A stretch of DNA of 34,300 nt from Bacteroidota bacterium (lineage in GTDB: Bacteria; Bacteroidota; Bacteroidia; Bacteroidales; UBA7332). A model generated the notes under the pieces. That model was not told where the DNA came from and did not search any database. It saw only the letters and a list, made by a program, of their open reading frames with translations. Location: positions 1 to 34,300 of the forward strand of contig JAUZOF010000006.1 of assembly GCA_030706585.1 (NCBI GenBank), written 5' to 3'. Both the position numbers and the translations under genes were made by a program. Positions 18,557-32,195 of this stretch are shown here, piece after piece (the stretch's first letter is position 1; each line of letters opens with the position of its first letter).

Positions 18557-18784
18557 GGAATTTTCCCGTAAATTTTGCCCCTGGAAAATTCCGAAGTCAA
18601 AATAAACCGTCAATTTCCCCTCTGGCTGGATTCCGGGTCTCAAAAAACAGTTTTTTTTGAGGCTGGCGCGCGCCAGAGGCAAAAAAAACTCTTTTTTGAG
18701 ACTCCGGATTTTCCCGGACACGAAAAAAAACGTTTGGGGAGACGTTGGAATTAGCCAGAGAGAAAAAAAACGAAAAATTCCGAC
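18557..18784 (+). other. Structured leader with nested hairpins and A8 tracts
   Basis: The 359-base gap before the DUF6261-type gene is full of inverted repeats. H1: GGAATTTTCC (18557-18566) with GGAAAATTCC (18583-18592). H2: arms 18637-18669 and 18670-18702, symmetrical about CTGGCGCGCGCCAG, with 29 of 33 positions paired. H2b: TCCGG and CCGGA (18703-18718). H3: GTTGGAATT (18744-18752) with AATTCCGAC (18776-18784). Runs of eight As start at 18681, 18723 and 18763, about 40-42 bases apart, and eight Ts start at 18651. No credible frame exists here. It may be an untranslated RNA leader, an independent RNA or bent regulatory DNA. Confidence 0.7.
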
Positions 18785-18896
18785 ATCCGGATTTTCCAGA
18801 GACCAATTTTCCCGTTTCGATTTAGCCTAAACCCATCCAGAGAGGATGATAATGATTGAAAATCTCATTTTTGTTTAACTGATAAAGAAAAAAACT

Positions 18897-19634
18897 ATGA
18901 TTGAGACATTTAATTATTCATTGTTGCCCAACGACGAATTATACACGTTGACGCAACGGGTTATGACTGCCTGCAACGGATTAAATCTGACAGATGCTTC
19001 GCCAGTGAAGCCTTTGATCAATGCCGCAGGAAATGCTTTTGAGAAATTTGACCTTGCTTTTAAGCGGGAAAGTAAAAACAGTTCCACCCCGATTCTTCGG
19101 AATCTGGATGAGATCAGAGACGAAGGTTTTCTGGCGTTCCGATTCTGCACGGAAGCCTGGAGCCACCGTGCCAATACTGAAAAACGGGAAGCTGCCCTGA
19201 AGATTCTCTCCGTGATCCGTCGGTACGACTGGAGTGCTCATGCGCTGGGCGACAAAGCCGAAACGGCGGCTTTGGCCAATCTGATCAAAGACCTCCGTAA
19301 CAATTATGCTGCTGAAATGACACTTCTGACTCTTTCGGAGTGGTTCGAGGAGATGGAGACAGCTCAGGTTGCGTATGAAAAGGGAGTTACCGAAAGCGCA
19401 GCCAACGCGCCTACCGACTTACCGACGCTGACGATTACCCGTCCGGATCTGATCAAGGCATTGAAAAATCTCTTCTCTCTGATCTCCCTGCTCGAACCTT
19501 CAATGCCGGAATTCACACCTCTGATCGCCACCATCAACAACCTCATCTCCCAATCGTTCACTTCCGCCAAGGCCGCCGCGACCCGCGCTGCCAACCAGAA
19601 AGCGGAGGAGGCGAAAAAGAGTGAGGGGCAGTAA
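18897..19634 (+). CDS. DUF6261-type protein of unknown function
   Basis: A 245-residue soluble, largely helical protein without a signal peptide or membrane segment. Length and composition, including the opening FNYSLLPNDELYTLTQRV and the Ala/Lys-rich end (AAATRAANQKAEEAKKSEG), suggest the Bacteroidota DUF6261 family, whose members often occur as several paralogues in one genome. No catalytic motif is visible. The gene has higher GC than the two genes that flank it. It is preceded by the structured leader and followed by a strong hairpin, so it seems to be a self-contained unit. The family name is from memory of its general features and is the uncertain part. Confidence 0.65.
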   Translation: MIETFNYSLLPNDELYTLTQRVMTACNGLNLTDASPVKPLINAAGNAFEKFDLAFKRESKNSSTPILRNLDEIRDEGFLAFRFCTEAWSHRANTEKREAALKILSVIRRYDWSAHALGDKAETAALANLIKDLRNNYAAEMTLLTLSEWFEEMETAQVAYEKGVTESAANAPTDLPTLTITRPDLIKALKNLFSLISLLEPSMPEFTPLIATINNLISQSFTSAKAAATRAANQKAEEAKKSEGQ

Positions 19635-19645
19635 ATTTTATTCTT

Positions 19646-19676
19646 TTCAGGGGGTGACTTCGGGTCACCCCCTGAA
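19646..19676 (+). terminator. Strong GC-rich hairpin after the DUF6261-type gene
   Basis: TTCAGGGGGTGAC (19646-19658) pairs perfectly with GTCACCCCCTGAA (19664-19676) around TTCGG. It begins 12 bases after the stop codon. No T-run follows, so it may be a stabilising 3' hairpin or a Rho-assisted end rather than a classical terminator. Confidence 0.65.
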
Positions 19677-31533: not shown

Positions 31534-31889
31534 ATGAATGGAATCTAATTTTCAGCCGTTGAAGGGCTGCCTGTAAAAATCTAAAAGATAAAAGTTACGG
31601 TTGAAAACCATCCTATAAAATTATAGACTCATTTTCTGTCGGTTGAAAGACCCCTATAAATTTATAGATTCAAGATTTTCCATTATAAGGTCGCCTATAA
31701 ATTTATAGGACCATTTCCAACTACATTTTTTAAGCCTATAAAATTATAGCGTTAAATTCGGCGGTCAATTTTAACGCTATAATTTTATAGGACAAATTTC
31801 AATCGCCGAAATCCGATCTATAATTTTACAGGATGATTTTCGACGGTCAAAAATCATATTCCGTAAGCTTAGAATCCAATTCCATTCAT
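31534..31889. repeat. 11-base inverted repeat flanking the palindrome array
   Basis: ATGAATGGAAT (31534-31544) and its exact reverse complement ATTCCATTCAT (31879-31889) bracket the whole array, giving a unit of 356 bases. No target-site duplication was evident and no transposase lies inside. Confidence 0.6.
31570..31832. repeat. Array of 16-base palindromes spaced exactly 41 bases
   Basis: The palindrome CCTATAAAWTTATAGR occurs at 31612, 31653, 31694, 31735, 31776 and 31817, each exactly 41 bases after the last; the final one ends at 31832. A degenerate copy stands at 31570 (42 bases before). The 25-base spacers are not unique: the box CGGTTGAA/CGGTCAA recurs 13-14 bases before several palindromes (31598, 31640, 31762, 31844). 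The section 31735-31791 is itself a near-perfect 24-25-bp hairpin with an 8-base loop. No open frame fits here. Its nature is unknown; see findings. Confidence 0.9.
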
Positions 31890-31977: not shown

Positions 31978-32007
31978 TTTGATTTCCGGAAATAATCGTT
32001 ACCTTTG
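31978..32007 (+). promoter_or_regulatory. Promoter of the btuB transcript
   Basis: TTTG (31978-31981), an 18-base spacer and TACCTTTG followed by C (32000-32007) match the consensus apart from a spacer one base short. Transcription would begin just before the riboswitch. Confidence 0.7.
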
Positions 32008-32013
32008 CAACCG

Positions 32014-32195
32014 CTTTGGTTCCGAAGCCGCATTCGCGGTCGAGGATGAAAAGGGAATCCGGTGAGAATCCGGAACAGTCCCGCTGCTGTAAGCTTCACC
32101 AAACGTTTGGGCAAAACTTTCGCCACTGTCATGCGACGGGAAGGCCGCCCCAAACGGAAGTAAGTCAGAAGACCTGCCACGGCAACGTTAGTTCA
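32014..32195 (+). promoter_or_regulatory. Adenosylcobalamin riboswitch
   Basis: The 182-base leader contains the conserved cobalamin aptamer core (32051-32094: the GGGAATC...GTGAGAATCC...AACAGTCCCGC...CTGTAA series), then GCCACTG (32122-32128), GACGGGAAGG, and the closing box AGTCAGAAGACCTGCC (32163-32178). Binding of adenosylcobalamin would shut down the receptor downstream. No clear terminator hairpin was found in the 130 bases to the probable start, so the control may be on translation. Edges are approximate. Confidence 0.93.

Follow-up and report, generated by a model that had tools for sequence, protein, structure and literature searches.

Arrays of dyad-containing repeats with a 41/42-bp period upstream of DUF6261 genes in Bacteroidales

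A repeat array and a DUF6261 gene in a Bacteroidota genome

The features of the locus are listed in Table 1. The window analysed is the whole stretch of 34,300 nucleotides at positions 1 to 34,300 of contig JAUZOF010000006.1 (assembly GCA_030706585.1, Bacteroidota bacterium). It contains a gene of the unknown family DUF6261, identified by a Pfam match (PF19775) of 73.1 bits (E = 3e-20) against a cut-off of 27, and 71 of 71 aligned relatives match the same family. The gene is preceded by a non-coding stretch, in which the initial annotation of positions 18557-18784 had noted four successive inverted repeats, one of them with 29 of 33 positions paired about its centre, together with A8 runs starting 40-42 bases apart. 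These observations proved correct on re-examination: the 29 of 33 pairs were recovered, and the A8 runs start 42 and 40 bases apart. A 261-nt stretch folds as RNA at -105.1 kcal/mol, compared to -67.7 +/- 4.2 for shuffled sequences (z = -8.8). What appeared as four hairpins plus A-tracts is, however, a single tandem array. Tandem Repeats Finder (TRF) gives a period of 41 with 4.3 copies at 18631-18806, and the five copies recognised extend over 18588-18792. The self-match at lag 41/42 is 0.55, against 0.27 in dinucleotide shuffles, none of 3000 of which reaches the observed value.

Table 1. Positions of the array, the gene and neighbouring features in the window
Positions	Strand	Feature	Details
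18588..18806	+	Tandem array of five copies of a ~41-bp unit	Copy starts 18588, 18631, 18670, 18711 and 18752; consensus TTCCCGGAGTCAAAAAAAACCGTTTATTGAGACTCTGGCTT
18637..18702	.	Strongest dyad, centre 18669.5	Central sequence CTGGCGCGCGCCAG at 18663-18676; neighbouring dyad centres near 18650.0, 18689 and 18710.5, i.e. about 20 bp apart
18681..18770	+	A8 tracts	Starts 18681, 18723 and 18763, in the same phase of three successive copies
18807..18896	+	Short gap between array and start codon, where the promoter is expected	No clear Bacteroidota -33/-7 motif recognised here
18897..19634	+	DUF6261 protein gene	245 aa; predicted all-helical (AlphaFold2, mean pLDDT 95)
19646..19675	+	Hairpin GGGGGTGACTTCGGGTCACCCCC, likely terminator of the DUF6261 gene	Compensatory change in the congener (GAGGGTGAC...GTCACCCTC)
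31590..31850	.	Second 41-bp array, without a DUF6261 gene	Unit with CCTATAAATTTATAGG; same unit at two other places of the genome; just before a cobalamin riboswitch (32000-32195, RF00174)

In Rfam, the leader gave only sub-threshold chance matches such as mir-992, and at the gathering score only the cobalamin riboswitch and two tRNAs were found, all elsewhere in the window. Models of two family members, including that of the window protein, are predicted to be all-helical, with mean pLDDT values of 95 and 93, and neither has a significant match in PDB or viral fold searches. PADLOC and PHROGs yielded no match, and NCBIfam gave only weak matches, far below cut-off, for two relatives. Nearly invariant residues of the family include a DxxRD motif (D71, R74, D75), and the proteins are slightly acidic (mean net charge -2.7). 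A search of plasmids with the window protein found none that carry it. Two “phage” hits are short unannotated faecal scaffolds. One of them (MT837725.1, 1-6318), filed as a phage from human faeces, carries a DUF6261 gene beside what reads like a C5 methyltransferase, a Vsr-like endonuclease and an HU-like protein, and is probably bacterial DNA. No recurrent gene neighbour was found. An empty site that would indicate a mobile cassette was sought in the congener G002, but there is no synteny upstream of uvrA in that genome.

Period and symmetry of the arrays across the family

The initial annotation had proposed the comparison of regions upstream of other DUF6261 genes, and this gave a positive result of an unexpected kind: the sequence is not conserved, but a strict 41/42-bp period is. 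A genome of the same genus, termed G001, carries a 95% identical protein with the leader conserved. Other DUF6261 genes have unrelated upstream sequences, but most of these are also repeat arrays. We assembled 80 loci of up to 16 kb from Bacteroidales genomes which, together with the window and eight earlier loci, contain 89 DUF6261 genes, nearly all from Bacteroidales; most of the data come from metagenome-assembled genomes. Of these, 72 have an array with a period of 41/42 bp, or a multiple thereof, within 900 bp upstream, whereas 17 show no array within this distance. The arrays comprise about 2-10 copies. The averaged autocorrelation of the upstream regions has sharp peaks at 41-42, 82-84 and 123-126 (weaker at higher multiples) and nothing else, while other intergenic regions of the same loci are flat. 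The periodic signal is located at about -600 to -50 and, on average, not in the gene, downstream or further away. The best lag falls in the 41/42 series in 59 of 72 upstream regions, compared to 25 of 188 control regions (Fisher p = 1e-25). An independent set from another genome collection gave 18 of 24, including an isolate of Parabacteroides goldsteinii. A scan of this collection with the window protein alone had found nothing, and its members were retrieved with a subfamily alignment.

The anatomy of the arrays was examined in 70 cases, with a mean of 5.5 copies. Although the units are unrelated in sequence, 306 of 316 copy spacings are exactly 41 (178) or 42 (128) bp, with only 10 at all other values. 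The mean of 41.4 bp corresponds to 4 x 10.35 bp, i.e., four turns of the DNA helix. Most arrays are purely 41 or purely 42 (27 and 14 of 61, respectively). Of the 70 units, 55 contain a dyad with a stem of 5 bp or more, against about 21 expected, and in 13 of 15 units with two dyads the centres are 20.5 or 21.0 bp apart, i.e., two helical turns. The gap between array and start codon is A+T-rich across the family (GC 34%, compared to 46% in the arrays). The few matches to a -33/-7 promoter are densest there, but the numbers are small. A-tracts in phase with the helix are present in the array of the window but absent from many other units.

Unit sequences are alignable only between close relatives: in 4 of 7 pairs with 75% or more protein identity, in 2 of 9 at 55-75%, and in none below. 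In one set of near-identical paralogues, all or nearly all copies carry CTACA..TGTAG in one locus and CTGCA..TGCAG in the others. In this set, two paralogues of G001 with about 90% identical proteins differ in these dyad arms, and the relative in the genome of the window has the CTGCA type. Part of this pattern reflects recombination between the loci, as the promoter side and N-terminal codons of the latter gene resemble the other paralogue; it is therefore a lead and not proof of a specificity switch. The G001 assembly also contains, on both contigs C1 and C7, two pairs of DUF6261 genes with identical scores about 113 kb apart, which suggests a duplicated or strain-mixed segment in that assembly.

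Arrays of the same period also lie elsewhere without the gene, as in the second array of the window. On 800 kb of G001, TRF lists 26 stretches with such periods. After setting aside coding repeats, a tRNA cluster, a period-43 array and the three DUF6261-linked arrays, 14 clear intergenic arrays were kept, all with a best lag of 41 or 42. They lie between ordinary genes and are enriched between convergent genes (6/14 vs 22/204, p = 0.004). One array (contig C1 of G001, 274525-274675) occupies the short gap between a PstS-like and a PstC-like gene, an operon-internal position typical of REP elements. Only 4 of the 14 match a DUF6261-linked unit of the two congeners (G001 and the genome of the window). 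Two linked units used in DNA searches each had several cognate arrays in both congeners and none in G002 or a further genome, G003. In 346 kb of DUF6261-negative genomes no array with a period of 41, 42, 82-84 or 123-126 was found, against 13 hits in 897 kb of flanks and 18 in the 800-kb contig, some of them coding or tRNA repeats; this comparison is suggestive only, as the sample is small and not corrected for phylogeny. The other common repeat class on contig C1 of G001 has a period of 72 (eight places) and perhaps represents CRISPR arrays.

Tests for RNA pairing in the arrays

If hairpins of the sense strand were selected, G.T mismatches in the dyads should exceed A.C mismatches. Across the 70 arrays the two are equally common (114 vs 126, p = 0.48); an earlier test with few stems was underpowered (8 vs 4). 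Between the two congeners, 13 pairs of the predicted leader fold are changed, of which 8 break, 5 survive by a one-sided change and none by a double change. Paired positions change as often as unpaired ones (14/182 vs 5/79). By contrast, the hairpin behind the DUF6261 gene shows a compensatory change and serves as a useful positive control for RNA pairing. Both lines of evidence argue for double-stranded DNA, and they disfavour an RNA element without excluding one.

Interpretation of the arrays and their relation to known systems

The interpretation offered in the initial annotation, namely a non-coding RNA, an RNA element controlling the gene or phased A-tract bent DNA, is partly supported: the RNA reading is weakened, and the phased-DNA reading fits better, since 41.4 bp is four helical turns, but A-tracts are a detail of this array and not general. 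We consider the stretch to be a helically phased array of dyad DNA sites placed upstream of the DUF6261 gene, outside its coding region and probably upstream of its promoter. The analysis itself demonstrates the fixed spacing of four turns, the dyads half a period apart, the different unit sequence of each gene and the related arrays elsewhere in the genome. That the dyads are bound as double-stranded DNA by a dimeric protein, with all copies on one face of the helix so that a continuous protein-DNA stretch would form, is inferred. It is inferred with less certainty that the binder is the DUF6261 protein of the same locus, or a complex containing it, which would thereby control its own gene and mark the dispersed arrays with the same unit. 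This mechanism is the most likely of those considered but remains tentative: the proteins are slightly acidic, their predicted fold matches no DNA-binding structure, 17 of 89 genes show no array within 900 bp, only 4 of the 14 intergenic arrays without the gene match a DUF6261-linked unit, and proteins 50-75% identical mostly have unalignable units, such that recognition would have to change quickly. The rapid drift of the unit sequence, with period and symmetry kept, is as expected if spacing and symmetry are under selection and the letters follow a co-evolving partner.

Among the alternatives, REP/BIME-like selfish or structural repeats, which a mechanism with a 41/42-bp ruler would amplify and spread from or into DUF6261 loci without site-specific binding by DUF6261, are doubtful, though they would account for the dispersed arrays with the same unit, the positions between convergent genes and inside an apparent pst operon, and the rapid unit turnover. 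RAYT genes are likewise flanked by cognate REPs that keep their palindromes (PMC2817692), and RAYT-REP/BIME (REPIN) systems share with the present loci the linkage of a protein gene to its own palindromic intergenic repeats, the dispersal of arrays, the compensatory change of palindrome arms and fast evolution. Against this, no transposase domain, such as the Y1 (IS200/IS605-like) transposase with HUH motif of RAYT systems, was found in any of 71 proteins, the arrays on average lie upstream and not, as REPs do at RAYT genes, on both sides in inverted orientation, the units are in-phase tandem copies with a private sequence per paralogue, there are few copies per unit type, and the spacing is far stricter than needed for simple dispersal. 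An RNA element is unlikely; in this view the array would be transcribed as a leader or as a small RNA of repeated hairpins that controls the gene or neutralises its product, as in type III toxin-antitoxin systems (ToxIN, CptIN, TenpIN), in which the repeat is transcribed and processed to a pseudoknotted RNA. The very stable predicted fold, the same gene order as in type III systems, the similar copy numbers and the conserved repeat length with diverging sequence (ToxI repeats of 34-36 nt; PMC5086642) speak for it. The mismatch and pair-change data, the fit of 41 and 42 bp to helical turns, the occurrence of the same class of arrays without the gene and between convergent genes, and the lack of an Rfam family at gathering score in the leader speak against it, as does the all-helical predicted protein, with no RNase match and none to a ToxN/CptN/TenpN-type endoribonuclease in Pfam, PADLOC or PDB folds.

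Phased A-tract bent DNA acting as an upstream promoter element is very unlikely: A8 tracts lie in phase at 40-42 bp in this array, but many other units contain no A-tract, yet keep the same period, and dyads are the more general feature. A meaningless tandem duplication or an assembly artefact is already contradicted: the genome of the window is a fragmented assembly (834 contigs), but the leader is conserved at 92% in a second genome, and the period is shared by 70 unrelated arrays and replicated in another collection. Two further systems bear comparison. The BrickBuilt MITE of Porphyromonas gingivalis is also an intergenic tandem minisatellite dispersed in a Bacteroidales genome (PMC4596501), but its 23-nt repeat is of one sequence with MITE ends and is not linked there to DUF6261. 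Iteron and centromere arrays of plasmid replication and partition are helically spaced direct repeats next to the gene of the protein that binds them, whereas the present arrays are chromosomal, with many paralogues per genome and no recurrent neighbour such as a partition ATPase.

The loci thus lack at least one defining feature each of RAYT-REP systems, type III toxin-antitoxin systems and RNA leaders, and no description of the pattern was found in the open-access literature searched, which excluded subscription papers and preprints. It is possible, though on present evidence unlikely, that DUF6261 proteins and their arrays form orthogonal protein-DNA pairs, wherein each of up to a dozen paralogues per genome has a private, fast-changing dyad unit with fixed four-turn spacing and organises its own set of dispersed chromosomal arrays; this would be a new class of chromosome-marking or regulatory nucleoprotein system in Bacteroidales. 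The period, kept to within one base across dozens of unrelated sequences, points to selection on spacing and not on letters, and gives a family of unknown function, mentioned once in the only paper found to name it, a concrete candidate partner. If DUF6261 binds its array, the many paralogues would provide a natural set of co-evolving protein-DNA specificities; if it does not, the genome-wide 41/42-bp arrays would still need a ruler mechanism.
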